NCBI GenBank assembly: GCA_963931925.1
Contig: OZ007576.1
Span: forward strand, 11,502,261-11,566,260
Source of the DNA: Onchidella celtica
Lineage: Eukaryota > Mollusca > Gastropoda > Systellommatophora > Onchidiidae
Direction of reading: 5' to 3'
DNA length: 64,000 nucleotides
Shown: positions 23,506 through 59,030 of the stretch, one piece after another
Numbering within the stretch: position 1 is the stretch's first letter
How the letters are laid out: the number at the start of each line of letters is the position of its first letter
Position numbers and translations under genes: made by a program
The notes under the pieces: generated by a model
What the model saw: only the letters and a program-made list of their open reading frames with translations
What the model was told of the DNA's origin: nothing
The model's database searches: none

Positions 23506-23795
23506 TTAATGACTGTTATTAATCAAATGCTTTTCAAATAAATTATTCTCCCCTTCCTCATCACTAGAAGGGACATCACGAAACTCTTTCATCATTGGGG
23601 AGGCATAACTTGGTGGTGATTTTGACTTGTACTGGATTCGGCTTGGCAGCCCCACTTCCAAATCATCACTGTCTTCATCATAATCATCATCATTATTCAG
23701 CTGGCTGAAGCCCATGTTGTCATATTTCATGCGGCCAGGTTTCTTCAAGCACATCACTGCTGTGATAAATATGACCACCACAAGGACAATGCAAC
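23506..23795 (-). CDS. CPD: CPD exon 28: membrane span, cytosolic tail, stop
   Basis: 290 nt, residues 1582-1677. Encodes [18 protein letters not shown], then a tail of about 80 residues with YDNM at 1606-1609 (YxxM/L-type sorting signal), an acidic run [14 protein letters not shown] at 1642-1645 (PPxY, WW-domain type) and SSDEE at 1658-1662. TAA is at 23508-23506. Confidence 0.96.
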
Positions 23796-26700
23796 CTGAT
23801 GAATAAACGCAAAGGATAAAATATATCTATTGAAACTGCTAGAATGGAGATATCCAGCTTTGACAAGTTGTGCGTACCACCTTCCAATAGGACAGCAACT
23901 TAACTTAGTGGGTGCACAGGTTGCCAGTCTTTCATCTGTTTGCATGCATATACAGACTCGACTGGATGTCATGTTTCAATAAAAAAGACACTTCCTATTT
24001 CTTGAAATTCGATCTCATAAATGTGGCCATTTTTATAATAAGCTTTTTGGAGTCAATATTAGTCTAAACTACATCCACCCACAGTTTAATTTCTGTCTTA
24101 TAGTATGTTATGTGTGTGTATCTATATGTATACAATGTATGTGTAGCAGAGAGAGAGAGGGTGAGAGAGAGAGCGTGAGAGAGAGAGAGTGAGTTGCAGA
24201 TGGAGAGAACACGACTGTCTGTAAAGCGCCTAGAGCAAACAGCTTGGATTGGGCGCTATATAAATGATCTTCATTATTATTATTATTATTATTGTCTATC
24301 CTTTCAACAGTCTGTTTAATTATCTGCCTTTACATTTCATTATTCATATCTATTTGCCTGTCCACAAATATGCCTAATTACAATTTGCTAATTTTTTCTT
24401 TCAATCTCAAAATCTCATAACATATTACAAATTATAAATCAGAGAGGGATGGCAACGATAAAAAAAAAATCTCCAGTACATTGCCCGTATATGATCAAAA
24501 TCTAGTAACTTTATTTTTGTGTCAATGAAGGACATTTAAAATATCATAAATGAAATATACATCACAACGAGTAAACAATGTGTCTGTTCTTCCCCAGATG
24601 CTACTCACAAAAGACACTCATTCAGAGATTATTCTTTTATATAATTTATTCAGACATTAATCTTTTATGAAATAAGTGACATATGATGACCCAAAAAAAA
24701 AGTAGCCCAGGTCTTCTTCTTGCCCCCACTTTGCATAAATAGTTTAAATATATGTCCAGATTTTGAGAAAGGCAAACAGTGTCAAATTTTTGCAATTTTT
24801 ACTTGATTTTATTAAATATTACACTGTTTGTGTTGAAGCAATACTACAAAAACACAACAAGATGAGGCACATCAGCTGGGCATACTATTTACCTACTTTG
24901 ACAAATAAGAGCTGGCATGAAGGACTTAAATGGTTTCATTGCCCCTTACCAAAAACATTCACACTTACCAAATACAGTCATCGTCAGAATGGGCGACAGT
25001 CCAAATAGCCAGGTGCTTGATGTCATTTCAACGTGGATTTCATGAGAATTAGGACCAGAACGAACATGCACTTTCTAGAACAAAAAATTTTTTTAGATCA
25101 ATAAATGCAATATTGATGAGTGCAACCCTTTATTTTCAAGTGATTTTATTTCTGGGTTGTAGTAAACTGTTTATATTGAACAGTATAAATAAGTATTATG
25201 AATTTAATGTTATTCAGGGCAACACTATTCATTTGTCAGAAATTCATGTTTTGAAACATCCAATTCTTGAGTTAATCACAGGCACTGGATCAGGTTTCCA
25301 GAGAACCATGACATGAAGGATTCCACCCACCCATCCATAGTGTTGTCATTAACTAAAATAAAGTGTCCTTTTCTTTCTGTGTCAATTCAATTATTTCAAA
25401 TTCAAGAAAAAAACAACTCTGAATCTCACTTCCCTTCACAAGTGCCATTTCCAAACTGTCACAACAGTGAAAAATTACTTTATACATTAACCCTCATCCT
25501 GCAGGAGGCCACTATATTGGCCTTCCCGTGCAACGTGTAACGCAAGCGAGGCCAATATTTTGGCCTACATATTGCAAAGCCGGTCCTGCGGGAGGCCAAT
25601 ATATTGTATAGCACCGCTGTTCCTCATGTTTTGTTTATTTTGTTGCCACGACATCGTTTTTTTCACGTTTTTTTTTCACACTATTTTTGCTTGTTTATCA
25701 ATCCTGTCACCCCTACTATGTCTAACAAAATGGTATCGCCTGATTAGGTTAATTACAATGCAACTATTCATAACTATTCGTCATACTCATGTAATAGTAC
25801 TAACTGATGGTCCGAAGTTTGAAACTGGGGAAAATCTTGGGGAAACTTTTACTTTGATGTGTTGTCGTCTACATGTGAAATGAGAAGAAAGGTGTTTCAT
25901 CAGGGGAAACTGGGAGAAAATGACCGAATTTGTTGTTGGTTGTTATCTGTATTTGATGTGGTAATTAGAGAGATATTGTGTTGCTTTGATTAAACCACTT
26001 TTCAGTATGTACTCTACAAGCTGGAAATCAAATCTCTTGCTAAAGGTGTGCTAGGAAAACTAACATCATAGTATGTGGAACCTTTACCTAGTTCAGGGGG
26101 AGAAGGCAATGTCATGATACATGTGGTTAGTAAATTAAGTGCTGGCTTAAAAAATAATTTGTTCACCTGAATGGCCTGACTTAGGGACAAAACAAGCACG
26201 CAGCTCTTGGAAAACGGCTCAAACGTGTGTTCAGCGGCATATAAATGCAGAACGTTCTCGATTATGGGCCTTCTGCTTAACAATACAAAGTACTGCATTT
26301 CATCACATGTACTTTATCCAAATATCATAGGGGTTACTTACCATTTATCCACCATTATTGTTGTTTTTGCGTCCTAAAGTAAACATGATACACATTTTCA
26401 AAAGGACCCGATTGACCCGACCACCGAGGTTATCGGCAACACGCGAATGATCGGCTGACTGGCCCCTGGCTTCCCCGCACAGGGCATTATGTGGACAATT
26501 TCACTCAATGTGGGACAAGGGTTAATGTCTCCTGTAATGACCAAAGCCAAAATGTGCAAACTGTACCTGCCATCAGTGAAATTTCACTTCAAGACCTATA
26601 AGACAATCACTAATCAACAAACAGTAGAAATACAAACATACCATTTCTTTGTCCTTGTATCCGCTAGCTTCAAGGGAAAGAATGTGCTCTCCTGGCGGCA

Positions 26701-29700
26701 AGTAAAATGCAAACTGGCCTTCTTTGTTTGCAATCTGTGTATAGGATGCTGATTTGACCTTTAACTGAACATGAGCCACAGGTCTGCCATTTTCTTTATC
26801 TTGCACAGTTCCAAACACTCCTTTGCGAGACTATAGAATAGAATAGGTAATTCATATCACAGTGATTTTCATACCACAAGATAAAATTGAGAATTGAAAT
26901 TAGCATGTAAAACCTGGCCAGTGCAACGATAGTAGGCCAAATCCCAACAATGATGAAAGAACGAAAACAAAATGTTGCACTTAATGGCAACCACAGACAG
27001 ATAAAAAGAACACGAGGACGACCAGGAAGAAGATGGCAGGATGATATTAAAAAGAGAGGGGGGAACAACATGGATGAGGAAGACATCAGACAGAAAGGAA
27101 TGGAAGTCACTGTCGGAGGGCTACATCCTGCAGTGGTTGGACAATGCCTTCGTGAAGGAAGTGACTTTTTTCATGACATGTCATGGAAATGGCTTTACAA
27201 GAACTTTTCACAACAGAATTTTTATCCAATCAGAATTAACCTTCTTCTTTCCCAGATACTGATTTGACTGGAAATGAAATGTTCACTGCTGGCAGTTGGA
27301 AGAGAAGAATTTATTGATTATGGTGAGGGAAGGTGAGATACTGAGGGTAGTGGAAGAAGACAGGAGACTGATGGTGGCAGTGGCATAGAAGAAGTTGCTA
27401 ACTGTGAAGGAAGCAAAAAATGACTGGAGGCTGATGGTGGCCGTGGAAGTACTGGTAGATAAAAAATGATGGAGATAGTGGAAGAGTGAACACTGCTGAG
27501 AGGCACAGAAGGGATAATGGTCTATTTGTACTGATGAAGTTATGGCACGAAATTTTCTAGAGCTAGCTAAAAATGTCATGTTTTCAATTTGTTTGTCTGA
27601 TCAATTTACATTCTACGTAATTGTGAATATGTAATATTAGTAGAGGCTACTCCAAATTTCATGGTTTGATGTCAATTAATTCATCTTTTAATTGTGCTGT
27701 CTGCAAATTAGTACTGAGTATTGAACTCCGTCCATAAAAACCAAAAAAAAAAATACAAACTTCAGTGGAATCTTGGATTAACTCATCACTAATACTAAGA
27801 ATGATTTATTTTTTTCTTTGTAAAATGCCTAGAATGTATGGGGGGATGATATGGTTACATCGTTACGAGAGAGCACTAGATCTGCTACGAACACTTCTCT
27901 CTCCCTCTCTTATCTCTCTATTGCCCCCACCCTGGACAGAACATACATTTATTTATAAAACCCGTCCTATTGAGAAAAGCGTCAGCAAAACTCGTGGTAT
28001 GTACTGGATATGTCGTGGACAACTTGCTAAGAAAAATTTTCACGATTTTTATGTCATGTAAAACTTCACGAGAAAAATTTCCAAGACGTCGTGAAAATAG
28101 TCACTTCCCTTGGTGAAATGTGAAAACTGTGATGGTTGTGGACTTTGACGTAAGCCCCTGTTAATCATTTTAGTCAAGGGCGAAAGTACATACTTCAAAC
28201 ATAAATTATTACTGCATTTGGCAGCAAAAATAAAATTTAAATGCAAGCATTCCACGAAAACTAAAATTTATGTTTGTAATGCATCAGCACAATGGTGAAA
28301 TCACTTGTAGGTCATCAGTACCTGAAGTGGCTGGACAAGCAAAAACTAATCTGCGTGACTGCATCTCCAGTCTCACAGGCACAAAAATGTTGTTACAAAT
28401 ATGTACGTCCCCCAAGTTTTTCTTCTGCACCACGGGTACATATTTTAAAGCCTTTAGTGATTCCAGAGCTAGAGAGCTCCTCCCGAAATGCTCAGTGACA
28501 ACAGCCTTAATTAATTATGATTAATTATTCTTTCAGATTTTCTTTTTGTTTTGTTTTCCTCCTGTTTTTTGGTTGAAAGAGTAGGGGGCAGGATTAGGGA
28601 TTCGATAGATTTAAGGTTGAGGATAAGGACATACGTAGGCACCCCCACCACAAAACGCTTGGGGTACATATGTACTTATAACAACAGCTTTGGCACAATA
28701 CATTAATAAACTATAGGTCTAAAGATTCTCAGCCTCATATTATGAGTTCCAATTCAAGGATGTCATACTCAGTCTAACTAGAACAGTTGATGTAAACATG
28801 CAGTTCACTTATATTATATATTAATACAGCTCTCCTGAACTATGTTGAGTGATTTCAATACGGAATTATAAAGCTAGGATCAACTCCACAAGCACCCTAA
28901 TTTTTAAGATTTCATACTATTAAAAGCCAATCAATGGTGGATAACTCAATTGCCAATAATATCAGATGATACTGATCAGTTGAAAAATAAGTTCTCCGGT
29001 ATATTTGGGCTGGACAAGATCACCTGGTAGCCCAAACATGACAGAGTTTGAGTTTGATGTTAAATGTGAATTGGCTAACAGATATACTTTTATAGTATTA
29101 CTGTCTCTGGTGAGATAAAATAGTTCAATCATTTAATTATGTGAGCATATAATCTCAAGCCTTTAACTACAGAAGTTAAACCAATGAAAAAAACATCTCT
29201 GTTTAAGGAAAAATTTATGACCCACATAAAATGTCTACATTCCTTTTTTCATAGGAATGAACACAGATGAGCCTAATTATTCAACAAAACATTAACACGG
29301 GTGATTTCTGGTTACAAATCCCATAGAATTAACAAACCAATATGAATCGTTACATACCTCTCTGATCATTGACATGAATGGTTGTCTCATCTTCTCCCAG
29401 ATGTCAGCAAGCTCCTTAGCCGGTGGATATCTACAGCATCCGGCGAAGAGTTCTATCACTGCTTTGTTGGCATACCAAGTAAAGTAAGACTGCAGAGGAC
29501 ACAATGTGATATTTTACATTTCTGAATATTATAAAGGATATACCCACCTATTATAAATTACAACCTCTCACTTTGGTCTTTGAAAGTGTTTATTTATTTT
29601 TGTTTCTTTCACTCATTTTCCTCCAAAAGTAGACTAAACTCATATCAAAAACAAAATCAAAAAAATTATCTATCTCAAAGAGATCAACATCAAAATATTT

Positions 29701-32700
29701 TTGACACTTTAATCCTCTAGGCTCCAAAATGGAAATGACAGAAATTATATGATATGTGTGTGTATCTGAAATACATTTTAACTGATTTTCAGTGATACTT
29801 CTTTTACATTCTTTTATGCATATTGTATAGTGAGTAAACTGTGTTGACCTTTGTTAAAAAAGTGCATATTGTTGTGCAAGAATACTGTTCTTACATGGCA
29901 CCTTGGCCTCTATAGGATAATAACAAACCACATCATAGCATAAATCATGTATGTTTTATTTAAATTTCAAGAGCCTAAATGAAGCAGCTGGGAAGAAAAG
30001 TCGTACATATGCTCAATGTCTGTTTGTCACCATGCCAAACACAGCTTTCAAATTATTTTAGGGTCTCATTTCCTCGAAGTGAAAACTAGTTTTTTCTTTC
30101 AGTGGGGAAAATAGTGAGGAGCACCATTGCTGCATCAGTCTGGCTGTGAACAACAAAAGAATACTTGAAATGCTTACCGCTAAGCTGCCATCATGGAGAA
30201 AGTAATCTTTGTATGGTACAACTAATGAACTATATGCTTTGCCTGAAAAAGAGAGAAAGAAAAAAAAAATATGCGTCACATTTTCTGCCCAACATAAAAC
30301 ACTTTTTTTCACTGACATTTCATCATCCTCATCCATTTCTCTTCTCTTTCTCTTTCCAAAAAAAAAAGGGGGGGGGGGGAGGGGGGGATGTGTGCAACCA
30401 TTCAATATGATGAAAGAATTATTGCATATGAATGGCTCTTTGGAATAATGCCTAAACACATGATTTACATGTGCAACAATATTGAATATAAGAATTGGCC
30501 AAATGTTTGGGAAATGGGACTAGCAAGGTAAACCATTCTCATACAGGCAGCAGACTGACACTTCCTGAATACATAATTTAATTTGTACCTTTGTGATCAG
30601 GACAGGCAGAGCCATTTGTCATCTCTGCAAAACCACCATTGACAAAAGCACTGGCCAGGTCTGAAAGAGACAAACATGATGATAGAGGTGTAATCTGTGT
30701 TGAAATGAATGGAAAATTTGGATTTCAAATGATCTTACAAAAAACTACATAAGCAGGAGTTTCACATATGTGAAAAATAATAATTTATGAATGCGAACAA
30801 TACACACAGACACACTGAAATTAGACATATAGTTCTTATGATGTTATTTCCTTCACATAAATTACCTTTGGTTATAGTTAACATTTCCGTACACACTATT
30901 AGTTTGAGAAAACTCTATATTACAGCTTCTGTTTCCCTCCAATTATGCAATCAAACTTTTGACCCTTCAGAGAACTTCAAAATCATTCTCATTCATAAAA
31001 CTGCACAATGGCCAATCATTCTCTCCAGGACTGGTCAGTTCTTATAAGAACTGTGTACACTTTTTGAATATTTGGTAGCCAGTAAATATGCCATATAAAG
31101 GTGGGTGTATTTGTTGTTTAACCATTATACAAGACACAAGTCTGGTGCACTGGAGGGGTTACTGACACTTTTTCAGTCTTGCACCAAACTCAACTACTTT
31201 AAGTGTACTGAAAATCTGAATTTGGCCAAGCCATTTTCACACAAGGCCTAAAGATATATCTAGTCACAGGTTTACCTTCATAGACTGGATCAAAGTAGCT
31301 GACAATGTTATCTCCACTGCGTACATTGATAATGACAGGCTGGTTGCTGTCGGCAACAGCTTTCTTCACTGCTTTCGTCTCTAACTGCTCCACCTCTTTC
31401 CCATAGTCTGATGGATCTGTTGAAAAACAAACAAACAAGTTCATACAAGCACCATCCTTCTTTGTCTACTAAAGAAAAATAGAGAACAATAATACTAACT
31501 TATGGGGATGAATCTGAGTTTGAGTTTGGAGAATATATGTCCACACAATAACGGTTGTACGGAGCTATGAAGAAGCAAGACGACAGACAGAATATAGCAG
31601 AATGATAGGACAGAAGTAGACCCTGCCAGGAGCACCCACAACGTTGTATCCTATGTTCTACACTGCAAATAAATCATTTTCCCAACTTATGGGAAGATGG
31701 GTAGGTCATTTAATTTGTGATGTAGAACACAGGACACAAAAGAAATAAACAAATTAAAGTACTACATGAGTCAGACACAAACGCAACATCAAAAGAAGCT
31801 GAACACAACAGTTTTTGCTTCCACTTTGACAAACAGCCTATTGGGTCCAAAGTATGGGTTTTTTAAATATTACATCAGACACCGAATAAACTTATATAAA
31901 CTTATGAACTGACACTTTTCAGTCTTTTGAGACTTTCTTAAAGAAGATGATGAAAAAGACTGTTTAAGAAATCAAATGAAGAGGAAAAGATCAGCACAGA
32001 TGAACTTACTGTAAAAGTTCTTGTCCAAGTCCACATTCTCAGAATTGTTGTGTCCAATACCTGCCTGACAGTTGTCTGCAGAGGCCATCCTTGAGCCTTC
32101 AATGTTGACGGCAGGCAAGATGTATATATGCATGCTATCCAGCATCTGAGGAATGTCAAATATGATGTGCAAGTATTGTAAGAAAACACAATAATAGCTC
32201 AAGGCAGTGGCCTTTCATCAGAAGGTTGCCAGTGTCAAGCTCCAAAAGTATGGTCCATTAGAACACAGATAACTGCTACTTTTTTCGTGCAATTGAAAAG
32301 GACAGTATGGGACTAAATTAAAATGCAAATTACATCTTCTCCAACATAAAATATTTTCATATCTGGCTGAACTGAGCACACAAATAATATACACTCTAGC
32401 AGTCACTGCCAAGAAACACAAAGCTTATTTGCCAATGAAATAAATGTAATGCATCATGTCTGGAAAGTGTACGTTTGAATGGAGTGGTACTGTTCCTACT
32501 CAGTTTAACATATTCTATATGGAAATCTCCACAGACAGCAAAAATAATGGTATAAAAAGTGCATCCACAAAGCAGGTAATACATTCTCTGACGTGACAAG
32601 TACAGAGCAACATTAAGTTGATTAACTGTAACTATCAAATAAAACAAAAACTTACACTTTTCATGAAATCATCTGCTTCATACTCATGACACAAATGGAC

Positions 32701-47700: not shown

Positions 47701-50700
47701 ATGAAAAAGCAACTGTTCTCTTTAACTTCATGAGCAGAATTGTTTTTCTAGTTTAACTGCAGATTTTTGCAATACAAATGCTACTACTTCATCTCACAAT
47801 ATGCCACTGGAAAAAAAGTTTCATATGAAGGAGATACATATTAAATATATGCCTCTAGCACATAACGAGTGACCTCAACACAATAAAACCAGTGTATGCT
47901 GCACCACGTACTAAAACATACACTCAATCTAGTGCAAGCCCAGTGAGATTGCGTCTAACTATCAAAAAGTTAAAACTAAAGTTTCATACTAAATTTTCAA
48001 AAAGTCCTTATTCCACTCAAATAAAAAAAAGCACCAAATTTAGAATATAAAAAGACACAATCAGCATAACAAGGCAACATAGGCTATGTGATATTTCTGA
48101 TGAACTCACCCTCAGATGAAACCTCATATCCATCAGGATTCATGGAAGGCATGATGTGGATGCGTGTCTCATCAACCAGAAGGGTCAACAGATCATCCTT
48201 CTGATAGTTCTCACATAAAAGTTCCGCCAGGAGAAGCAACATTTCTCGGCCAACAACTTCATTTCCATGCATGTTGCCAATATACTTAAATTCAGGTTCG
48301 CCTGTGTGAGTCAACAGAACAGAGAATGATGATACAGAACACAAAAATGATACAGCTTCCCATTATAACTCGTCTTGTCCACAGCATCCGCTCCATTCCG
48401 CTATTTTTTATCGAAAATGACACATGAAAAACACTCTTTGCCTCTGTATACTTGTCCACCGCATCCATTCCGCTCCGCTCTTCACCCCTACAGAGGCAAA
48501 GAGAGTTTTGCATACATCCTTTTCCATTTAAAAAAAAGTGGAATGGAGCAGATGCTGTGGACAAGGCCACTAACAGGCAATACAATAATTATTCTTTATT
48601 CTGCCAATGCACACAGTTCAATACAGAGAGTCTGAATTTATTATGCTGCAAAATAGGAAATGCTAATATCTATTAAGTCCCAGGAAGAGGACACAGTGAC
48701 AAACAAGAAAGATAAAAGAAGGGTAGACTCTACAGCTGTGCCTCAGACAAATCTTGTGAGAAGACGACATAAATCAAGTTTCCCGCCCATATGATTCCTT
48801 TCCACAATTCCCTCTACATATCAGGGCCGCACCCAACATTTGAGACAAAAAGTTTCTCATGACAAAGACTGAAAATACTCAATGCCAGAACAATGGCGAT
48901 AACTGAAGTTAATTCAAGTTAAATGAATTTTTTTAAAAGAGAAACTAAAAGACGAACTAGAGTAAATTAGCAAAGAAGAAGAGGAACAGCAAAAAGTACA
49001 TAAGGGAAGATGATGATTAAAACAACAGAAAAGTAAAAATGATAAAGGTGTTGGAATGTCAATGGAAAAAATATACAGTGGATGGAAAAGAAGCAGAGAC
49101 ACAATGTCAATGGAAAAAATATACAGTAGACGGAAAAGAAGCAGAGACACAATGTCAATAGAAAAAATATACAGTAGACGGAAAAGAAGCAGAGACACAA
49201 TGTCAATAGAAAAAATATACAGTAGATGGAAAAGAAGCAGAGAAACAATGTCAATAGAAAAAATATACAGTAGACGGAAAAGAAGCAGAGACACAATGTC
49301 AATAGAAAAAATATACAGTAGATGGAAAAGAAGCAGAGAAACAATGTCAATAGAAAAAATATACAGTAGACGGAAAAGAAGCAGAGACACAATGTCAATA
49401 GAAAAAATATACAGTAGACGGAAAAAATATACAGTAGACGGAAAAGAAGCAGAGACACAATGTCAATGGAAAAAATATACAGTAGATGGAAAAGAAGCAG
49501 AGACACAATGTCAATAGAAAAAATATACAGTAGATGGAAAAGAAGCAGAGACACCATGTCAATAGAAAAAATATACAGTAGACGGAAAAGAAGCAGAGAC
49601 ACAATGTCAATGGAAAAAATATACAGTAGACGGAAAAGAAGCAGAGACACAATGTCAATGGAAAAAATATACAGTAGACGGAAAAGAAGCAGAGACACAA
49701 TCTCAATAGAAAAAATATACAGTAGACGGAAAAGAAGCAGAGACACAATGTCAATAGAAAAAATATACAGTAGACGGAAAAGAAGCAGAGACACAATGTC
49801 AATAGAAAAAATATACAGTAGACGGAAAAGAAGCAGAGACACAATGTCAATAGAAAAAATATACAGTAGACGGAAAAGAAGCAGAGACACAATGTCAATG
49901 GAAAAAATATACAGTAGACGGAAAAGAAGCAGAGACACAATGTCAATGGAAAAAATATACAGTAGATGGAAAAGAAGCAGAGACACAATGTCAATAGAAA
50001 AAATATACAGTAGAAGGAAAAGAAGCAGAGACACAATGTCAATAGAAAAAATATACAGTAGACGGAAAAGAAGCAGAGACACAATGTCAATGGAAAAAAT
50101 ATACAGTAGATGGAAAAGAAGCAGAGACACAATGTCAATAGAAAAAATATACAGTAGACGGAAAAGAAGCAGAGACACAATGTCAATAGAAAAAATATAC
50201 AGTAGACGGAAAAGAAGCAGAAACACAATGTCAATAGAAAAAATATACAGTAGATGGAAAAGAAGCAAAGAAACAATGTCAATAGAAAAAATATACAGTA
50301 GATGGAAAAGAAGCAGAGACACATTTAAACAGCAAAGGAATTACCTGGTTCATGTTTCCCTGGATTATCAGATATTTCCAAAACCCACAGATCTCTTTGC
50401 TGCACTGATTTACCAATAGAATAAAGTCTGGTAATTGACGGATACTGCTCAGTAAGGTTTTGCAGGAAACTGGTCATTTCCTCATAATTGTGGTGTTTGA
50501 AGTCCTTGGGTTCTGTAAAGTGTGTGGCAGCATGATGGCTGTAAAAAAAGAAATACAAAAAGCAGAATGATTTGTTTGGCTGCTGGAACTGTATGAGTTT
50601 AAAACATTAGAAATACAGAAAAACTAGTAAAAACAATCTCCACTAAATGCTAGTATAACTTTGCAAAAACAAAATAATATGACATTTACATCAAACACTG

Positions 50701-53700
50701 ACATATATATCAATCTTAAAGGGCAAAGGTCGTATGCAAATTTCTGACCTATAATCTTGTAGAGAATCCACAGCAGAGGCCAGGGTGTCAAGTGGATCTG
50801 TAGTTTTGACTGTTTTAATGTCAAGTCTGTGATGACAAAGCAAAGAAAAACACAACATAATTTATGGATAGTAAACGATAATGACCTTTAATAAACATTA
50901 AACATCACCAAAATCCACGGGATTGAAATGATTCACTGCATCATGAGGTCAGAAGAATCATCTGTATCATTCCATGGCACAGGCATACAATGAAAAAAGA
51001 TGTTGCAGATAATGACAGCCCCTTAAGGTCTAAGAAAGAAAGACGAATCTGAGACTGACACCAAAAGGAAAGTGTGAGTGAGCAACAGAACAATGAGAAC
51101 GATAAATTAACAATCGACTCTACTTCGAAATCATTGTGCATCAGACCAAATGTGATCAGCATATGAAATCACTGCGCATATAACAAAATGTGATCAACAT
51201 CTGCACACTGGGAGACATACATGAAGTTGTAACAAAAAAATTTTTTTACCACTGGTTAACACAAATTTAACATAACCGTTGGTGGCAATCATCTTAAGAA
51301 CTACAGACTAATCATTACTGTACATGCGAACTTACCTAACATCAAAGGAATCCAAACTCAAATTACAAAATTAGATGTTTTTAAGGTATCGTTCCATCTC
51401 AAAGACAATTTCTTTGGCGTCATGTATGAAGAAAGGAAACTAAAACTATCTGAATTATCTATCTGTCAGAACCACACCCCATCACAAAAGTCTACACAAC
51501 CATAATGCTAAAAGTTTTGGTAACAATTTCTAATTTCTTAGAAACTGTAATCAAGAATATGGTTTCCTTCACAATTTTGAGTCAAAATTAGGTCTTACTT
51601 AGAAAAAATTATCAATATAGCAAAGAAAATGCAGGATCGAAAAGTCCAATGCACAGATCTCCACAAAAGAAGGGAACAAAACCAATGACAAAATCCAGAA
51701 AAAGATCATTCTGTGCCCAAACACACCATCTTCTTTTTCTTTAACTCAATTTCATTTAGTACCAACCACCTACAGGCACTTCAATGGGCTTTCAAAAAAC
51801 AGTCATGGGTTGTTGTTTTTTTGTGCTTCATGAAATAGGAAAATTGCTTGCATCTAAAAGTGACCTCAGCACTTTCTCAAAAATAAAATAAAATAAACAG
51901 TTCCATTAACAATTAGTTTAAGCAGTTTTTATGTTTATTTTGGAGCAAAAACAGCAAAATACGATTTGTGTTTCACATCTAAAGGTTATTACAGCAATGC
52001 AAACTTGGCTCTAGCAGAACAGTCCACCAATGTGGAACTTGCCACAGGATCTTACCCACTGCTTCTTTTTGTCAAAGCAAAGTCCAGCTTGACTCCCTCA
52101 CCATCTGGCACTTGAACATCTTGTTTAACACTCTCATCATACCTAAAAACCACAAAAAAAGTGATCTGCAACAGCAGGGTAAACTATTTTTATGTATAAA
52201 CAATCACTTGTTGTGGACTGTCAAACATTGTTAAGTAAACCAACGTGCCGTAAAACAAATATACCCCAACTGCTGTGAACTGCAAAACAAAATCTCTAAA
52301 TATTACTATACAGTGAAAGCACAATATCATTACCAATGCATGAGTTTATGTTAGGCAAAAAATCATTCCTCTATACTATATCAAACACCTCTACAAATCT
52401 ATCACATTAATTCAAAGACATTTACAGTTTACAGGCAGCACAAAGGTCAGTACAAAGTTGAAATCAAGCAAATCAAAACCATGTAAAATATGGAGGAAAG
52501 TTGCTAACTTGAAGACTAATACAGGTTCAAATGCTGTGGAATAGTAAGCAGTGCTTTAACGTCACTAACCAAATGCTTACTGCATGTATACACAATCACC
52601 TAAGAGCATCAAAACCCATACCCATAGAGCATATAATAGTCCATTTGATCCTATTTCAAAATCTTTGAAGGAGGAAATATACAGCACATCACATTCTAAA
52701 TGTGATTGTTTCGTTTTCTTGTTGATAAAACCAGTCTACTTTGAACTAATATTAATTTAAACGCACAAATTTATCCTACACCACAGGCAAACTATCCAAG
52801 TGATATCAATTGAGTTATCTGTGAAATTTATCAACTCAATTATTCATCCAAGTACTTCTCACTCTCAGGAATTTAAGTCACTGGAACATTCTATTCATAA
52901 ATAGAGGTGCAATATGACTTTTTGGAAAAGGGTATAGACAATTTATAGCAATTGCTACAAACGATCAAATGCAATGGATCAAAGAAATAATTGAGCCTAG
53001 CCCAGTGTTCAATTATGAACAAGGAATAGAGATACTACAACAAGTGACACAAAGCCGGAATACGCCATCAATTATGACTCAGACTACCCTGCACTATTTT
53101 GGATGAGATCAACTGTTCATAATTAGGCATGTGCACAACAATGTTTCATGTAACATATTGCACATGCTGAAACATTTTCCCTTGAATATTACATTTCAAA
53201 AGTCATTTCCATAAAAGAATTTGAACATTATTTACACCTTCCTTGCTCATTCTTTTATGCATTAGAACAGTAGGTCGGGCATATTAAAAGAACAATCACA
53301 CTAATCACACCTACTATACTGAAAGTAAAAATGAAGCACCGCATTGGAGAGTCCTGTAATCTTACTATAATGGAACTAGAGGGTGAACATGTAAGCGCTA
53401 AAACTTTATCACTACGTGGCCAAAAATCACGAAACTTGGTGCACTGCTTCAATTTTTGATGATGAGTTATGTCGACATCCCCGTTTTGCACTTTAATATT
53501 ATCTATTCACTATTTTTTGAAAAGCAAAATAAGAGATGCATTTTCCCTGAGCAGGATCAAAAAGTTTCACCGGAAATTGCGCTCTACGCCTCTCTTTACA
53601 CATTGCCGGCCAAAAGTCAAATTTTATCACATCTGTGTATTCTGCAAGGAATTGTCATACAACAAAAAATCTATTAGTAATTAGTCTTTGCATTGAATCC

Positions 53701-56700
53701 AAGTCCCGTTATTAATGGGACCTAGATCTAGCTGGGCTTCGTACAAGGAAAATTTGCAAGATATATCTTGCCTGGGTAGGTCAGTAAATATATAACACAG
53801 AATGGGACTACAAGTACACAGAACAAAAGTTGCATCTAATCCAAAATAGCTGCTCACATACTTCCCGTGGTCACGAAAAGTGGGCTTCTTTCACTTCTGG
53901 TAGTTCCCTATTCTCTGGTTATGAACCTTCTTAACCCTAGTCCTGCGGGAGGCCACTATATTGGCCTCCCCGCGCAACACGCGAGACCATTATTTTGTCC
54001 GACACGCTTAACCGCGGGTCCTACAGGAGGCCACATTTTTGTATAGCAACGGTGCGCCTCGCGCTTTGGTTATTCGGTTGCCAAGGCTGTCGTTGTTTTT
54101 GTTTTTTTCCACACTATTTTCGCGTGTTTATCTATCCTGTCACCCCTACTATATCTAACAAAATGGGATCGTCCGATTACGTTTATTACGATGCAACTAT
54201 TCGCAACTATTCGCCATACTCCTGTAATAGTACTGACGGTCTGAAGTTTGAACTGGGGAAAATCTTGGGGAAACTTTTACTTTGATGCTGGTTGTCGTCT
54301 ACATGTGAAATGAGAAGAAAGCGGCCATGTGCGTATTTGAGACGCCGTTCTACGTCTGTAATTATGAATTCCGATGCAATATTAGGGCATACTGCATAAG
54401 GGCGTCTGTCAGTAGGTTTTTCATCAGGGAAAACTGGGAGAAAATGACCGACTTTGTTGTTGGTCGTTGTCTTTATTTGATGTGGTAATTAGAGAGATAT
54501 TGTGTTCCTTTGGTTAAATCGCTTTTCAGTACTGTACATGTATACATGCTCTACGACCTGGAACTGGAAATCAAATCTCTCGCTAAAACTAACATCATAG
54601 TACGTGGACGCTTTACATAGTAGAGGAGGGGGAAGGCAATGTCACGATACATGTGGTTAGTAAATTAAGCGAATGGCTTAAAAAATAATTTGTTCACATG
54701 CATGGCCTGACTTAGGGACAGAAAAAGCGCAGAGGTCTTGGGAAAATGATAAAACGTGTCTTAAACGGCATGTAAATGCAGAAAATTCTTGATTTGGGCC
54801 TTCCATTTCACAATAAAACCTACTGCATATCATCGCAAGTACTTTATCCAAATATCATAGGGGTCCCTTACGATTTATCCACCACTATTGTTGTTATTGC
54901 GTCCTGAAGTATACGCAATACACGTGTTCACAAGGACCCGATTGACCCGACCACCGAGGTCATCGGCAACACGCGAACGATCGGCTGACTGGCCGCTGGC
55001 TATCCCCGCACGGGGCTTTACGTGGACGAGTTCACTCAACGCGGGACGAGGGTTAAAATTTTGAAAAACAATCCAGAGGAATGCACAAGATTCAAGTGAT
55101 TATAAAACTTTGAAATATAATAATAATTATTATTAACAGGATATATAAAACAATGACTTCAAGTTGGGGATATCTGCAGCTGGTAACTTTCTTACCCATT
55201 AGCTATGACTCTGACTGTATATGTGCCAGGCACAAGCAAACGCCAATAATCTCCAAACTGTGCAGAGGTGATATTGTGATCAATACCATCCACAATAACT
55301 GTGGCAGAAGGAATGCCTTCTCCTGTTTCAGAATCCCTGATGAAGCCTTTCACACCAATGTGCACCTGTCGAAAATAGTCAAGCTCACTCATGACACATT
55401 CCATATTTCAAACATCTGCACATGTTTCACATGCTTTTAAGACAAAGCTATGTCTATGCACAATAAATTCATGATACCAGCTTTCATATATATATATAAT
55501 TAATTCTCTAGTGACATATCTTGATGTAGCATATCTTGTTTGTAGGATGCACAACATGTGTTTTATCAGTGTCTGATCTTGCAAAGAATGTTAGCAATTA
55601 GTAATCAGCACTAATAAAGTACGTCTACTTTAATGAGTTTGATGATTTTATATTGCCCAAACACCGACGTGAAAATATACTGCAGTTTAATTTAACTTGT
55701 ATAAAGATACCGTAACAGCAGCATCTGCAAATTTGTCTTTAAATAAAGCCAGGTCTTACATTAAACACAATAACAGAGCTAGATCTTCTCTTACTGTTCA
55801 AGAAATGGCTCAGTATTAAAGGGAAGTCTCAGTAATGAATCCTCTGTGCCACAGAGAAGTGTAGTGAAAATATTACTCGAACAATTATGAAAAGTCAAAT
55901 TCCACAGCACCAGGTGTTATCATAGTGCCTCACCTTTCAAAGACAGCAGGTGAATGAGTAGACAAATGTGAGCATTAAAAATGGGCTTTTCCCCCCATGT
56001 CTATATATTATTGTGGCCACATTAATATTACTAAATCCACTTTTATCATTATGTTAACGCTCACCCTGCGCGCTACCCGTAAAGCCCACTGCCCGGTCAG
56101 TGACCTTACTCACGGAGAATCTTATCTGGGGTCACTGACCCGTGCCGCTATACGATGACCATAATATGCTGTACATGTGGTTCGGTTTTTATTGATCGGT
56201 ATGAAAACATTCGCTGCTATGCCTTATCATGCTTGATAATGAAGTAACCAGCAAAACCTTAGTCTGTCAGTCTCTAACCAATGATCTGACTTATGATTCC
56301 AAACTGACAGCTGTACTTTTCGTGAGAACGAAGCATGATAACAAGCCACGCCCTCCCAAGCCCTACACAAATGGTTTCACCCTGATTGACACATACTAAT
56401 AGACCAATGTGGGCATTTGGGGCAAAGATTATTTCAGAGCTTGTTTCTGATTGGTTCTTAGATCTATACAGACAACTCCAGATGGTGCTCAGATTGTGAG
56501 AAAATGAGATAATATTGCAAATTTGTTGAGCAACAGTTTGCATGTCGATGTTAGATCTTTTGAAAGTGTGGGGAGAGCCTTTGAAAGCTTAGTCTTTGTG
56601 ATTCCGACCAGTGGTTCACTGGTTAACATGTCCATGTCACAATGCCTTTGATTTAGAAGAGATACAGTGAACAATAACACGGTGGTTACGTCTCAAAAAG

Positions 56701-59030
56701 GACAGCGACCTGATGCATAAAAATACGGCTTGCGCATGGCGCGGTCAGCTTGACCTTGCCGACTTTTGCCGCCCGTGCAGCGTGAGCGCTTGCAAAACAT
56801 GGGCGGCATTTGCCCTGCGTAGGGTGAAGGTTAAAATTGTTATCATTCCACTTATGATCATGACTGCTAGCCTTTATTCTTACTTAATATTAATTTTATG
56901 ATCTTTGTTAGGTGGATTTTGTCAAGTTGGAGATACTAAAATATACAATCATGATTCAGAACAAAAGGCATCGCTACAGAGGAATTTTTACCATTTCCAA
57001 ATAAGACAGTAGGGCCTCTCTGTTGTTTTCCCATTCTTGTGGCAGGTTTTCTGGGGGTGGGTATTTGCAGCAGGACAGCTCTACTGTTATTTCCAGACAG
57101 TTGCTGTGCAAATAATTGTAATCTTCCATGCCACCTGTGAGCAAAGAAATTGTCACAATATGACATACTGAACTGGTCTGATTTCATCCATGGACAAATC
57201 TCTCTCTCAGCAATAAATTAATGTGAAACTTAAACCTTTTAATTATTCCACAGCCAGTGATTCGGTGAACCACTTCCATAAATTGTATTAACACAAAAGC
57301 AGACCAGCAAAAATAAATCTTTAATGAGTTGAAATTTACAGACAATAGAACAGTATGTTAACTATACCTGAAGGACATAATATGATAATGCCTTGGTGTA
57401 ATGTCAAAAAGGGACTAATAGTCAAGTATTTAAAAAATTTATTATTCTACCCAACAATGGCCAATTAGGGCAATAATTAGCAATTAGGAAATCACTTTAT
57501 CATTTCTCCCACGTGGATGTTCATAATGAGCTGAACAGGACGAGCTGAATTGTTGATGCTCAGTAATGGCTCTTTTCACATTCTTATTAGTTGCATTTTT
57601 TTTTTTTTTTAGTTTTATTACTCTATAGCCATTTTTGAAATCATGCTTTTCTGCCAATCAACCTGAGTATTTTTTAACTGTTTAGTATAAAAGAGACTAA
57701 CAAAGTGTCCATTTATTATTGTTGTTTCTTTTTTTCCTGAACTGCTACTTTTCGCAGACCTTTCCTGGATGCAGAAAAATTCATTATAACTCTGGAGGGA
57801 AAACTGTTTAGGTTTCAGTATAGTATAGTATAGTCAACGTGTTTCAGACTGCTTATAACTGGAAAAACAATGATTTGCCAGCCCAACCACCCGATGACTG
57901 TGAAGTGTTGTAACTGACAAATTTTGGGGCACGAAAACAGATCACAAATTAGGCACTGCTTCTTTCCTGCCAAACATCAATATTTTCCTTACTATCATGC
58001 TTCTGCTAAAAATCTGACACTATACAGTACCATTTTTTTAAATCTCATATTTATTTGCCAATGAAATACACTACCACCATAACTCAAGCTTTTTTCAAAC
58101 TGAATGCTGTCGTCCAATGTCTCATGCTACTATTAATACTAAGCACCCTCAGATATTCCTTCATTTTGTGGAAACAAACCCAAGGCCAAACTCACCTGGT
58201 ACATCATACCAGTGAGCTCCATTGGTAATGCCATCTGGAAAGTGATCGCCTGTGCAAAGGTGTCCATTCCGCATTGTTTTATGATTGTTAGCATAAGTAT
58301 GGGCTAAAAGTTTAAAAACTAGATCGTCAGAAGCTGCACTGTATTTCCCAACATTTGTATGGGAGGCTGAATCATCAAATGGGTAAGAAGCAACCACACT
58401 TCCTCCATGAAGATTTGCAGACAAAACAAATGGGTTGTTCTCTATCCAGTGAATTATTGCTGCTGTTTCTGGCTGGACAGTGCCAAGATTTCCACCAAAC
58501 TGATCGGGAAAATTTCTGTTTAAGTCAATATTGTGAGCATTGTGTCGGCCAACAACTCCAGTGCAGTCTCCTATTTCAGCTTGCTCAAATCCGTCAGGGT
58601 TCATGGTGGGCATTATAAAAATATTTGTTGAGTCGACTATCTTCCTGACACGGCTATCTCCTTCATCATAGTGGAATAGCAAGTACTGAGCCAGATATAT
58701 GAGCATTTCTCTGCCAATGGCTTCATTTCCATGCATGTTGCCAATGTATTTAAACATGGGTTCACCTGGTTCAGTTGTGTTTACATTATCTGTTATCTGA
58801 AGTGCTAACAGTTTTCTGCCGTTTACACTAGTTCCGATGTCATGGAGCTTGGTAAGATTTGGATATTGGCTATGTAGATCATTGAACATGGTCACTATCT
58901 CATCATAATGATGGTATTTACTGGTATCGATGGTGTGGTCTAATGCATTACTGGTTGTTTCAGGAAACAACAAGGATAATGTCAATGTTATAAAAATTGA
59001 ACTGAACATATTTCGTCCTGGTGTCCACAT
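23506..59030 (-). CDS. CPD: Carboxypeptidase D with four carboxypeptidase repeats, 28 exons, 1677 aa
   Basis: An M14 (N/E subfamily) metallocarboxypeptidase that trims C-terminal Arg/Lys from peptides in the trans-Golgi and endosomal route. Exons on the minus strand: 59030-58196, 57134-56992, 55365-55196, 52142-52056, 50826-50749, 50538-50345, 48301-48110, 47405-47128, 46172-46073, 44622-44480, 43063-42894, 41394-41127, 40063-39928, 38503-38343, 37261-37173, 36591-36360, 35532-35424, 34642-34496, 33803-33626, 32848-32656, 32145-32010, 31416-31276, 30660-30589, 30242-30178, 29489-29358, 26830-26642, 25074-24969, 23795-23506. All introns are GT-AG and the total is 5034 nt, in frame. Order: signal peptide (about 1-28), repeat 1 (about 38-412), repeat 2 (about 450-820), repeat 3 (about 842-1205), repeat 4 (about 1209-1562), membrane span (about 1567-1597), acidic tail. 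Repeats 1 and 2 keep zinc ligands and catalytic Glu (H100/E103/H208/E297 and H514/E517/H621/E711) and the substrate Arg (R172, R585). Repeats 3 and 4 do not. Vertebrate CPD has three repeats and about 1380 residues. Confidence 0.97.
24139..24295 (+). mobile_element. SINE/LINE 3' tail with ATT repeats, in CPD intron 27
   Basis: After a GAGAGA run (24150-24192), the sequence GTAAAGCGCCTAGAGC, then GGGCGCTATATAAATGATC and an ATT trinucleotide tail (about 24273-24293), matches a tail shared by many marine invertebrate and fish SINE/LINE elements. The 5' part is not recognisable. Confidence 0.5.
24969..25074 (-). CDS. CPD: CPD exon 27: start of the membrane span
   Basis: 106 nt, acceptor TTCTAG. 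Encodes [20 protein letters not shown] then [15 protein letters not shown], the outer half of the transmembrane helix. Confidence 0.93.
25491..26521. mobile_element. piggyBac-like non-autonomous element, family A copy 1, in CPD intron 26
   Basis: 1031 bp flanked by TTAA on both sides (25487-25490, 26522-26525). The ends are inverted: CCCTCATCCTGC at the left, ...GGGACAAGGG at the right. TTAA targets with CCC... termini are the signature of piggyBac transposons. Homologous in the same orientation to 53935-55052, which has an extra block of about 90 bp in the middle. No intact transposase. Confidence 0.75.
26642..26830 (-). CDS. CPD: CPD exon 26: transthyretin-like domain 4
   Basis: 189 nt. 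Encodes [20 protein letters not shown] through [20 protein letters not shown], homologous to the last beta-sandwich of vertebrate CPD. Confidence 0.95.
26940..27165 (+). mobile_element. LINE reverse-transcriptase C-terminal remnant in CPD intron 25
   Basis: Encodes, with a frameshift, [20 protein letters not shown] then [20 protein letters not shown] and [12 protein letters not shown]-x-x-RW-x-DD followed by RxxW at this spacing is the usual C terminus of LINE polymerases. It is antisense to CPD. Confidence 0.65.
29358..29489 (-). CDS. CPD: CPD exon 25: repeat 4, catalytic Glu position
   Basis: 132 nt. Encodes [20 protein letters not shown] and [20 protein letters not shown]1452 sits where the catalytic Glu would be, with one extra residue before CC. 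Confidence 0.93.
30178..30242 (-). CDS. CPD: CPD exon 24: repeat 4
   Basis: 65 nt, acceptor TTTCAG, donor GCG|GTAAGC. Encodes [20 protein letters not shown] then LA. Short, supported by phase. Confidence 0.87.
30589..30660 (-). CDS. CPD: CPD exon 23: repeat 4
   Basis: 72 nt. Encodes [20 protein letters not shown] then PDHKG. Short, supported by phase and splice sites. Confidence 0.88.
31276..31416 (-). CDS. CPD: CPD exon 22: repeat 4, third zinc ligand lost
   Basis: 141 nt. Encodes [20 protein letters not shown] and [20 protein letters not shown]; the zinc His of NLHGG is R1379. Confidence 0.94.
32010..32145 (-). CDS. CPD: CPD exon 21: repeat 4
   Basis: 136 nt. Encodes [20 protein letters not shown] and [16 protein letters not shown] is NIEG and the substrate Arg of LNRNF is K1343. 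Confidence 0.93.
32656..32848 (-). CDS. CPD: CPD exon 20: repeat 4, first two zinc ligands kept
   Basis: 193 nt. Encodes [20 protein letters not shown] with H1272 and E1275 in the HxxE zinc positions. Confidence 0.95.
33626..33803 (-). CDS. CPD: CPD exon 19: junction of repeats 3 and 4
   Basis: 178 nt. Encodes [20 protein letters not shown] then the start of repeat 4, [20 protein letters not shown]. The donor AG|GTTTGT is a weak match to consensus. Confidence 0.92.
34496..34642 (-). CDS. CPD: CPD exon 18: transthyretin-like domain 3
   Basis: 147 nt. Encodes [20 protein letters not shown] through [18 protein letters not shown], a diverged beta-sandwich. Confidence 0.92.
35424..35532 (-). CDS. 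CPD: CPD exon 17: repeat 3, catalytic Glu lost
   Basis: 109 nt, acceptor AATTAG. Encodes [20 protein letters not shown]; the catalytic Glu of VELSCCKYP is H1096 while the CCKYP is kept. Confidence 0.93.
36360..36591 (-). CDS. CPD: CPD exon 16: repeat 3
   Basis: 232 nt, residues 1015-1092. Encodes [20 protein letters not shown], a helix [20 protein letters not shown], and [20 protein letters not shown] in place of the ITNGAHWY loop. Confidence 0.93.
37173..37261 (-). CDS. CPD: CPD exon 15: repeat 3, third zinc ligand lost
   Basis: 89 nt. Encodes [20 protein letters not shown] then [10 protein letters not shown]; the zinc His of NLHGG is A1008. The donor is GT|GTGAGT. Confidence 0.92.
37574..37700. 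repeat. 63-bp tandem duplication in CPD intron 14
   Basis: Two adjacent copies of a unit that starts CTGTGACTGCCAGTTCTATG and ends CATATTCCTGCTAACTAAT, differing at only a few positions. Confidence 0.85.
38343..38503 (-). CDS. CPD: CPD exon 14: repeat 3
   Basis: 161 nt. Encodes [20 protein letters not shown] then [17 protein letters not shown]; the NPDG motif of active repeats is replaced by NVHG. Confidence 0.93.
39050..39400 (-). mobile_element. LINE C-terminal zinc-finger remnant in CPD intron 13
   Basis: The minus-strand frame contains [20 protein letters not shown] followed by CAC, a C2H2-like motif with the S-R-I-G-L-x-S-H core found at the very C terminus of many LINE polymerases of molluscs and other invertebrates. 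The upstream frame is poorly conserved, so this is a decayed 3' end. Confidence 0.5.
39928..40063 (-). CDS. CPD: CPD exon 13: repeat 3, lost zinc ligands
   Basis: 136 nt. Encodes [20 protein letters not shown]. In alignment with GNMHGNE of the active repeats, the zinc His is N912 and the zinc Glu is S915. Confidence 0.94.
41127..41394 (-). CDS. CPD: CPD exon 12: end of repeat 2 and start of repeat 3
   Basis: 268 nt, residues 797-886. Encodes [20 protein letters not shown] then [10 protein letters not shown], an acidic linker, and the helix [20 protein letters not shown] that opens repeat 3. Confidence 0.95.
41700..41978 (-). mobile_element. tRNA-derived SINE in CPD intron 11
   Basis: On the minus strand an A box TGGTCTAGAGG (41972-41962) fits TRGYNNARNGG exactly, and a B box GGTTTGATTCC (41929-41919) lies 32 nt further on, the spacing of a tRNA-type RNA polymerase III promoter. 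It is followed by about 200 bp of SINE body with GTTAAAGATACCTTGGCAG and AATTCGAGAAGTACAGG blocks. It is not an intact tRNA, because the cloverleaf does not close at the acceptor stem. Confidence 0.65.
42894..43063 (-). CDS. CPD: CPD exon 11: transthyretin-like domain 2
   Basis: 170 nt. Encodes [20 protein letters not shown] through [20 protein letters not shown]. Same length and phases as exon 3. Confidence 0.98.
43172..44300. repeat. Local duplication of about 170 bp, interrupted by family B copy 1, in CPD intron 10
   Basis: The stretch before and just after the family B element (43172-43283 and 44061-44120) and the stretch 44121-44300 are diverged copies. Both contain TTCTTTCACA...TGGATTCATG, then GGTCAAATCTA or GATCAAATCTA, then TTTCTTGTTCTGCTTCA or TTTCTTGTCCTGCTTCA and GACATGTTTTTCT or GGCATGTTTTTCT. 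Confidence 0.6.
43284..44056. mobile_element. piggyBac-like non-autonomous element, family B copy 1, in CPD intron 10
   Basis: 773 bp flanked by TTAA (43280-43283, 44057-44060). Ends CGCTCACCCC and ...GGGTGAGGG are inverted. Homologous in the same orientation to 56058-56830, which is also 773 bp. A 61-codon minus-strand frame at 43896-43711 is shared with the other copy. Confidence 0.75.
44480..44622 (-). CDS. CPD: CPD exon 10: catalytic Glu of domain 2
   Basis: 143 nt. Encodes [20 protein letters not shown] then [12 protein letters not shown], with catalytic E711. Same length and phases as exon 2. Confidence 0.98.
45680..45760. repeat. Short tandem duplication, about 38 bp, in CPD intron 9
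   Basis: Two adjacent diverged copies of TGTTATGAAGGAGGCTAAG followed by TTCTGACTTCACTGTGATG. Confidence 0.6.
46073..46172 (-). CDS. CPD: CPD exon 9
   Basis: 100 nt. Encodes [20 protein letters not shown] then [14 protein letters not shown], the substrate-pocket loop of domain 2. Confidence 0.96.
47128..47405 (-). CDS. CPD: CPD exon 8: Arg and third zinc ligand of domain 2
   Basis: 278 nt. Encodes [16 protein letters not shown] (R585) and [20 protein letters not shown] (zinc H621), then [19 protein letters not shown]. Confidence 0.98.
48110..48301 (-). CDS. CPD: CPD exon 7: zinc ligands of domain 2
   Basis: 192 nt. Encodes [20 protein letters not shown] (zinc H514, E517) and [18 protein letters not shown]. 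Confidence 0.98.
48369..48570. mobile_element. Foldback MITE (PIF/Harbinger-like), copy 2, in CPD intron 6
   Basis: 202 bp, homologous to 4391-4595. It starts CTCGTCTTGTCCACAGCATC and ends with an imperfect inverted copy (GATGCTGTGGACAAGGCCAC). TAA lies on both sides (48366-48368, 48571-48573), again a TWA target. Inner inverted blocks CACTCTTTGCCTC and GAGGCAAAGAG are kept. Confidence 0.7.
49053..50322. repeat. 48-bp minisatellite, about 26 copies, in CPD intron 6
   Basis: A unit of 48 bp containing GTCAATAGAAAAAATATACA followed by GTAGACGGAAAAGAAGCAGA and GACACAAT, repeated head to tail. Copies differ at a few fixed positions (AATAG/AATGG, GACGG/GATGG, GAGAC/GAGAA). One copy near 49400-49445 has a 20-bp internal duplication. 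Because 48 is divisible by three and the unit has no stop in several frames, long open frames appear on both strands; they are not genes. Confidence 0.97.
50345..50538 (-). CDS. CPD: CPD exon 6: start of catalytic domain 2
   Basis: 194 nt. Encodes [40 protein letters not shown] and [13 protein letters not shown], matching the start of vertebrate domain 2. The donor at 50344 is about 20 bp from a 48-bp minisatellite in intron 6. Confidence 0.97.
50749..50826 (-). CDS. CPD: CPD exon 5: linker between repeats 1 and 2
   Basis: 78 nt, acceptor ATCACAG, donor AG|GTCAGA. Encodes [20 protein letters not shown] then SLQDY. No counterpart of known function; supported by phase and splice sites. Confidence 0.82.
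52056..52142 (-). CDS. CPD: CPD exon 4: end of transthyretin-like domain 1
   Basis: 87 nt, acceptor TTTTAG, donor GTAAGA. Encodes [20 protein letters not shown] then DFALTKRSS. The reading phase joins both neighbours; too short to stand out on its own. Confidence 0.9.
53935..55052. mobile_element. piggyBac-like non-autonomous element, family A copy 2, in CPD intron 3
   Basis: 1118 bp flanked by TTAA (53931-53934, 55053-55056). Left end CCCTAGTCCTGC, right end ...GGGACGAGGG. Homologous in the same orientation to 25491-26521. It begins 143 bp after exon 3. A short frame starting [20 protein letters not shown] (about 54163) might be a leftover of a transposase N terminus; the other copy has a stop in it. 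Confidence 0.75.
55196..55365 (-). CDS. CPD: CPD exon 3: transthyretin-like domain 1
   Basis: 170 nt. Encodes [20 protein letters not shown] through [20 protein letters not shown], the beta-sandwich that follows each catalytic unit in this subfamily. Same length and phases as exon 11. Confidence 0.97.
56058..56830. mobile_element. piggyBac-like non-autonomous element, family B copy 2, in CPD intron 2
   Basis: 773 bp flanked by TTAA (56054-56057, 56831-56834). Left end CGCTCACCCTGC, right end ...GGGTGAAGG. Homologous to 43284-44056. It ends 161 bp from exon 2. Confidence 0.75.
56992..57134 (-). CDS. CPD: CPD exon 2: catalytic Glu of domain 1
   Basis: 143 nt, residues 279-326. Encodes [13 protein letters not shown] and [17 protein letters not shown], with catalytic E297. 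The acceptor is TCACAG, the donor ATG|GTAAAA. Same length and phases as exon 10. Confidence 0.97.
58196..59030 (-). CDS. CPD: CPD exon 1: signal peptide and most of catalytic domain 1
   Basis: 835 nt, residues 1-278. The ATG at 59030-59028 precedes a hydrophobic signal sequence ([13 protein letters not shown]); a second Met at residue 8 could also serve. Contains [12 protein letters not shown] (zinc H100, E103), [16 protein letters not shown] (R172), [16 protein letters not shown] (zinc H208) and [13 protein letters not shown]. The donor is CCAG|GTGAGT. The matching part of repeat 2 is split over four exons. Confidence 0.97.

Follow-up and report, generated by a model that had tools for sequence, protein, structure and literature searches.

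A carboxypeptidase D gene with four tandem carboxypeptidase units, two of them predicted to be inactive, in the mollusc Onchidella celtica

The locus studied here raised the question of whether a carboxypeptidase D (CPD) gene can encode four tandem carboxypeptidase units and, if so, which of the four is additional to the vertebrate set. The gene lies in a 64,000-nucleotide stretch of the Onchidella celtica genome, contig OZ007576.1 (the window). An initial sequence-only reading had proposed four units within a single gene, two of them intact and two decayed in different ways, as opposed to a vertebrate CPD of three units with an inactive third. This vertebrate layout is published (PMC5683605, PMC11266112). 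The gene was rebuilt and compared with solved carboxypeptidases and with its relatives in the same genome, and the observation of a single four-unit CPD gene was confirmed at the level of the predicted gene model.

Gene model and layout of the four units

The exons were rebuilt from stop-to-stop frames, homology anchors, splice signals and a dynamic-programming chain of codon and splice scores, followed by manual setting of edges; the exon count and length claimed previously were known during this work, the claimed exon list was not. The two automatic chains, of 27 and 35 exons, both differ from the model finally adopted: frame and homology led to 21 edges being set manually, exons 15, 25 and 27 were absent from both chains, and exon 17 was lengthened by hand. 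The resulting model occupies the minus strand at window positions 59030..23506, with 28 exons, 1677 residues, GT donors and AG acceptors in 27 of 27 introns each, consistent phases and a single terminal stop; it reproduced the exon count and the length given by the sequence-only reading for a reconstruction closing in frame. The encoded protein opens with a signal-like segment, continues with four carboxypeptidase plus transthyretin-like units and a single membrane span, and ends in an acidic tail.

Most of the first catalytic domain is encoded, together with the signal-like start, by the intron-free exon 1 (58196..59030, minus strand as all others, with an M14 match), and its end with Glu270 by exon 2 (56992..57134, site alignment). 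The transthyretin-like domain 1 follows in exons 3 (55196..55365, Pfam) and 4 (52056..52142, the domain end). Exon 5 (50749..50826), 78 nt of linker only, had no homology support and is optional, being omissible in frame. Exon 6 (50345..50538) carries linker and the start of catalytic domain 2, which continues through exons 7 (48110..48301, HGNE), 8 (47128..47405, DLNRNF and His196), 9 (46073..46172) and 10 (44480..44622, the domain end with Glu270), the motifs in exons 7, 8 and 10 being placed by site alignment. The transthyretin-like domain 2 lies in exon 11 (42894..43063, Pfam) and ends in exon 12 (41127..41394), which as one exon also contains the start of unit 3. The unit 1 catalytic domain is thus mostly a single exon of 835 nt (58196-59030) and its unit 2 counterpart is split by several introns; the single-exon state could have come from intron loss or from a processed copy.

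In unit 3 the site alignment placed NGDSPVGQE in exon 13 (39928..40063), NVAGG in the manually set exon 15 (37173..37261) and the Glu270 position, read as His, in the manually extended exon 17 (35424..35532); exons 14 (38343..38503) and 16 (36360..36591) supply the remainder of the catalytic part, and exon 18 (34496..34642) encodes a degenerate transthyretin-like domain matched through Pfam. Exon 19 (33626..33803) joins the end of unit 3 to the start of unit 4. The latter retains HGEE in exon 20 (32656..32848), reads DLDKNF in exon 21 (32010..32145) and NVRSG in exon 22 (31276..31416), continues through exons 23 (30589..30660) and 24 (30178..30242), and has Phe for Glu270 in the manually set exon 25 (29358..29489), these sites again coming from the site alignment. 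Its transthyretin-like domain is in exon 26 (26642..26830, Pfam), while the end of the unit and the segment preceding the membrane span share exon 27 (24969..25074), which was set manually and supported by the C-terminal comparison. Exon 28 (23506..23795) encodes the span and the acidic cytosolic tail, assigned on hydropathy, and closes with the stop TAA.

The later exons were also scored for coding potential; exons 1-11 were the sole training set for the codon scores, and background and control stretches were drawn from one and the same set of introns. The claimed frame scored best in all 17 of exons 12-28, and for 13 of these 17 no more than 0.4% of equal-length random intron stretches were open and scored as high. 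The corresponding share was larger for exons 15 (2.1%), 17 (1.4%), 24 (9.4%) and 27 (4.8%), and the coding score alone is not individually convincing for these four short exons.

The introns contain several repeats. Intron 6 contains a tandem array with a 48-base unit (49055-50323, about 27 copies with 96-97% matches); the array creates extended open frames of 457 and 333 codons, with both strands affected, and these frames are taken not to be genes. An interspersed element of about 590 bases, perhaps mobile, is present in two copies that are 90-92% alike (43396-43986 in intron 10 and 56168-56764 in intron 2), and a second interspersed pair occurs at 25669-26476 (intron 26) and 54102-55006 (intron 3), its copies agreeing at 83-88% over three pieces. 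The window also has long microsatellites, AACC and TAGA, at 598-1368 and 2031-2178; no tRNA genes and no Rfam match at the gathering score were found in it.

Catalytic residues and the single-gene question

All four units matched Pfam Peptidase_M14, with E-values of 2.8e-77, 5.5e-82, 2.7e-16 and 8.2e-26 for units 1 to 4, and the transthyretin-like models scored above cut-off in units 1, 2 and 4 and below it in unit 3 (22.2 vs 32.3 bits). Over 374 aligned columns unit 2 had 234 residues in common with unit 2 of duck CPD (62.6% identity), and unit 1 had 194 of 371 in common with unit 1 of human CPD (52.3%) and 182 of 367 with that of fly CPD (3mn8; 49.6%). Unit 3 is strongly diverged, its identity to the remaining eight alignment rows being 19 to 27%. 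The best E-values of units 3 and 4 against the solved regulatory carboxypeptidases (CPD, CPM, CPN) were 2.4e-26 and 1.4e-34, respectively, and the matches of unit 4 to carboxypeptidase T (2e-6) and to the digestive enzymes (best 3.7e-4) were far poorer than those to the regulatory group.

Nine sites were scored in bovine CPA1 numbering: His69, Glu72, Arg127, Asn144, Arg145, Asn146, His196, Glu270 and Tyr248, the last of which we take to be an active-site position. Apart from Tyr248 the numbering follows PMC5683605, and the assignment of individual residues depends on the alignment. Units 1 and 2 each retain nine of the nine sites. Unit 3 retains two (Asn69, Ser72, a gap at 127, Asn144, Lys145, Leu146, Ala196, Tyr248, His270) and unit 4 three (His69, Glu72, His127, Asp144, Lys145, Asn146, Arg196, Thr248, Phe270). 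The proposal of two intact units followed by two that decayed along different lines was thereby upheld, the losses in units 3 and 4 being different, and because of the lost catalytic and substrate residues both are predicted to be unable to act as zinc carboxypeptidases.

Judged by the features of CPD, the protein carries more than one M14 plus transthyretin-like unit in tandem, four of four being M14-positive, and has intact zinc ligands, substrate Arg and catalytic Glu in its first two units. A signal start (residues 8-26, mean hydropathy 1.27), a single C-terminal span (residues 1580-1598, mean 3.13) and a cytosolic tail are recognizable, all on a hydropathy basis. The unit beside the span would be inactive according to its sequence, with Arg127, Asn144, Arg145, His196, Tyr248 and Glu270 replaced in unit 4. 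The protein departs from CPD as described in having four units instead of three, and in our judgement the unit number is a trait of the vertebrate and fly forms and not of the CPD family.

From the exon structure we infer that the gene is one transcription unit. An active two-unit carboxypeptidase might have been fused, only in the model, with an adjacent gene for an inactive two-unit membrane protein, and the activity pattern does switch exactly at the border of units 2 and 3. This border, however, falls within exon 12 (41394-41127), a single open exon of 268 nt that runs from the last part of unit 2 into the beginning of unit 3, has canonical splice sites and scores best as coding in frame; in addition, among the six top hydrophobic stretches only residues 1580-1598 resemble a membrane span. 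Since the 3/4 border likewise sits inside one exon (19), two separate genes are very unlikely; exon 27, too, combines the last part of unit 4 with the stretch preceding the span. The sequence-only reading had named RNA reads skipping exons 13-18, or two separate transcripts, as observations that would speak against it; in the gene model such a skip breaks the frame, and two transcripts disagree with unit junctions 2/3 and 3/4 placed inside single exons. Twelve other skips starting at exons 12 to 19 and ending by exon 20 stay in frame, but no skip can remove exactly unit 3, because both borders of this unit are internal to exons, 12 at its start and 19 at its end. A reading of units 3 and 4 as pseudo-exons or as an artefact of assembly is harder still to credit: both are indeed highly divergent, but throughout exons 12-28 the frames are open, the phases fit and the splice sites are canonical, and an identity of only 22 to 26% to units 1 and 2 is too low for a recent assembly duplicate.

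Relatives of the units and the identity of the additional one

The genome (1.14 Gb, 43 contigs) gave 23 matches to Pfam M14, seven of them in the CPD gene and the others at seven other places; M14B relatives are present on contigs 12, 2 and 10, and the reading of paralogues covered 18 stretches around six places. The active-looking carboxypeptidase on contig 12 (G000:C12:46731801-46737615, L012) shows 58% identity with unit 1 across 343 columns, has a start of ten residues in common with it, and gave matches to one unit only within the 60 kb read.

A different family in the same genome was PF14830 (Haemocyan_bet_s), which we take to be the molluscan haemocyanin family: its 33 matches are all on contig 7, in three clusters at 0.27-0.37, 2.51-2.55 and 59.31-59.41 Mb, and eight of them have stop codons inside the matched stretch. 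One translated stretch of 58 residues (L030) matched 14 distinct PDB haemocyanin sequences, keyhole limpet KLH1 included, with a best E of 1.5e-110 that is summed over eight repeats of one chain, while a second translated stretch (L028) had no PDB match at 0.001. These haemocyanin genes support the assignment of the genome to a mollusc.

Units 1 and 2 have three intron positions and phases in common (alignment columns 295, 343 and 401). Unit 4 has one of these (column 343, phase 0), while unit 3 has none exactly, although at column 401 one of its introns hits the same codon with a shift of a single base. Between units 3 and 4 no intron coincides in alignment column.

Trees were built from 12 rows (the four window units, five solved carboxypeptidases and three paralogues of the same genome) and from 13 rows, after addition of human CPD unit 3. 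The sequence used for the latter, like the human C-terminus below, is an assumed one, taken to represent the protein. No branch was starred in either tree, and the end branches of units 3 and 4 were so long (6 to 10 changes per column) that the trees do not decide which unit is additional. Unit 1 fell together with a paralogue and the first units of human and fly CPD at 47/82, and the pairing of unit 2 with duck unit 2 alone was absent from the best tree (p-AU 0.121). A single clade of all four window units was rejected (p 0.001), so that the units were not all born inside this lineage. In the same AU test, the assumed human unit 3 could be placed either with unit 4 (p-AU 0.318) or with unit 3 (p-AU 0.203).

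Vertebrate CPD unit 3 is given in PMC5683605 as H69, A72, Q127, D144 T145 D146, D196 and Y270. Three of these features recur in unit 4, namely His69, Asp144 and an aromatic side chain at position 270, and none of the three in unit 3. The similarity scores of the assumed human unit 3 were 572 with unit 1, 594 with unit 2, 345 with unit 4 and 232 with unit 3, and by this plain measure it is closer to units 1 and 2 than to either inactive unit, which speaks against a special tie with unit 4. The sequence-only reading had held that unit 4 shares the region before the membrane span with vertebrates, and this was borne out against the assumed human C-terminus and favours unit 4 as the counterpart: the C-terminal flank of unit 4 (LFGL...TV.G) scored 30, with a shuffle mean of 14.5 and with 0.15% of 2000 shuffles reaching this score, while the scores of the ends of units 2 and 3 were reached by 49% and 16% of shuffles, respectively.

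Two other markers were discarded. A PVG-x-E motif had been put forward as tying unit 3 to the third vertebrate unit, but the active-looking paralogue on contig 12 reads HGNEPVGREL, and the motif was rejected because of this occurrence. Replaced letters in common were apparently significant under the substitution-matrix expectation for unit 4 with the assumed human unit 3 (14/56) and for units 3 and 4 (16/80), and not significant for unit 3 with the assumed human unit 3 (7/56). The corresponding ratios were 3.05 vs 2.78, 2.48 vs 2.26 and 1.51 vs 2.75 for the sums of the active-row controls, and the test was dropped as evidence of kinship because these controls (sums 2.26 to 2.78) gave similar ratios. 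Among the ten active controls, human CPD unit 1 had the most letters in common with both unit 3 (10/27) and unit 4 (10/20).

On the assumed human sequence and on its position, unit 4 is probably the counterpart of vertebrate unit 3, which would leave unit 3 as the additional unit, weakly supported as this is. The two may instead both descend from an already inactive third unit of the vertebrate type that was duplicated, a history we regard as quite possible, if somewhat short of probable. Both units are inactive by sequence, and the best tree unites them at 55/84 with the human unit 3 as assumed here and at 51/66 with each other; these supports are, however, low and belong to long branches that meet, the replaced letters in common do not exceed the active-row control, and the two units are without an intron in the same alignment column. 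A duplication of the active two-unit block, with unit 3 derived from unit 1, unit 4 and vertebrate unit 3 from unit 2, and the copy of unit 1 lost in vertebrates, appears unlikely. The best solved relatives do fall into such a pattern, with human CPD unit 1 for unit 3 (95.9 bits) and duck CPD unit 2 for unit 4 (122.9 bits), and placement of unit 3 in the unit-1 group was not rejected (p-AU 0.314). Against it, holding unit 4 together with the second units of this protein and of duck CPD was weakly rejected (p-AU 0.033), the best tree joins unit 4 with unit 3 and the assumed human unit instead, and the intron phases at the two ends of unit 3 mismatch (2 and 1).

Predicted function and comparison with known CPD forms

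Taken together, the gene very probably encodes a mollusc CPD, a secretory-route type I membrane protein whose lumenal part would consist of two trimming units followed by two non-catalytic, presumably binding, units of the same fold. According to PMC11266112 and PMC5683605, CPD passes in cycles through the trans-Golgi network, where peptides already cut by convertases lose their C-terminal Arg and Lys to it, and its units 1 and 2 differ in preference and pH. Units 1 and 2 of the present protein would be the counterparts of these active units in vertebrate and fly CPD, with activity judged from the retained sites, and are predicted to remove C-terminal Arg or Lys from the peptides that furin-like convertases release.

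For the inactive third unit PMC11266112 and PMC5683605 report a proposed binding or presenting role: the binding of duck virus preS requires it and the viability of flies without it is much reduced, although the job behind this requirement for full fly viability is given as unknown. Because such a role has been proposed for the inactive vertebrate and fly unit, units 3 and 4 most likely serve binding as well and, by this analogy, would hold substrates or partner proteins for the two active units. Unit 3 lacks all three zinc ligands and unit 4 retains the His-x-x-Glu pair. Molluscs might have doubled the binding part of CPD, with the two units then diverging into a two-part receptor that presents or sorts different peptide precursors or partner proteins to the active units within the secretory route; this idea is speculative and we consider it improbable.

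Vertebrate CPD (human, duck gp180) resembles the present protein in its signal start, tandem carboxypeptidase and transthyretin-like units, single span and cytosolic tail, as well as in having two catalytically intact units first, matching human 1 and duck 2, and inactive ones last. In contrast, it has three units instead of four, and the replacements in both inactive units here are unlike those of vertebrate unit 3. Drosophila CPD (silver) likewise has active units followed by an inactive one needed for full viability, but three units in total as described in PMC5683605. The inactive M14B members AEBP1/ACLP, CPXM1 and CPXM2 have also lost catalytic residues; unlike CPD, they combine a single carboxypeptidase unit with a discoidin domain and are not tandem proteins, according to PMC11266112.

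Among the open-access papers listed in the literature searches, some lists covering 20 of 1,970, 15 of 450 or 5 of 2,447 hits, none was recognised as describing a four-unit CPD. Fan and co-authors are said to have reported in 1999 an Aplysia californica CPD with four units, two of them active. The layout has probably been seen already in the sea hare, and if this is right, O. celtica is a second mollusc with the same four-unit arrangement. The layout is otherwise a modest change in the domain number of a known enzyme. A lineage with two differently decayed inactive units nevertheless offers a natural comparison for the third unit of CPD, in which residues kept in both units may point to the binding surface.
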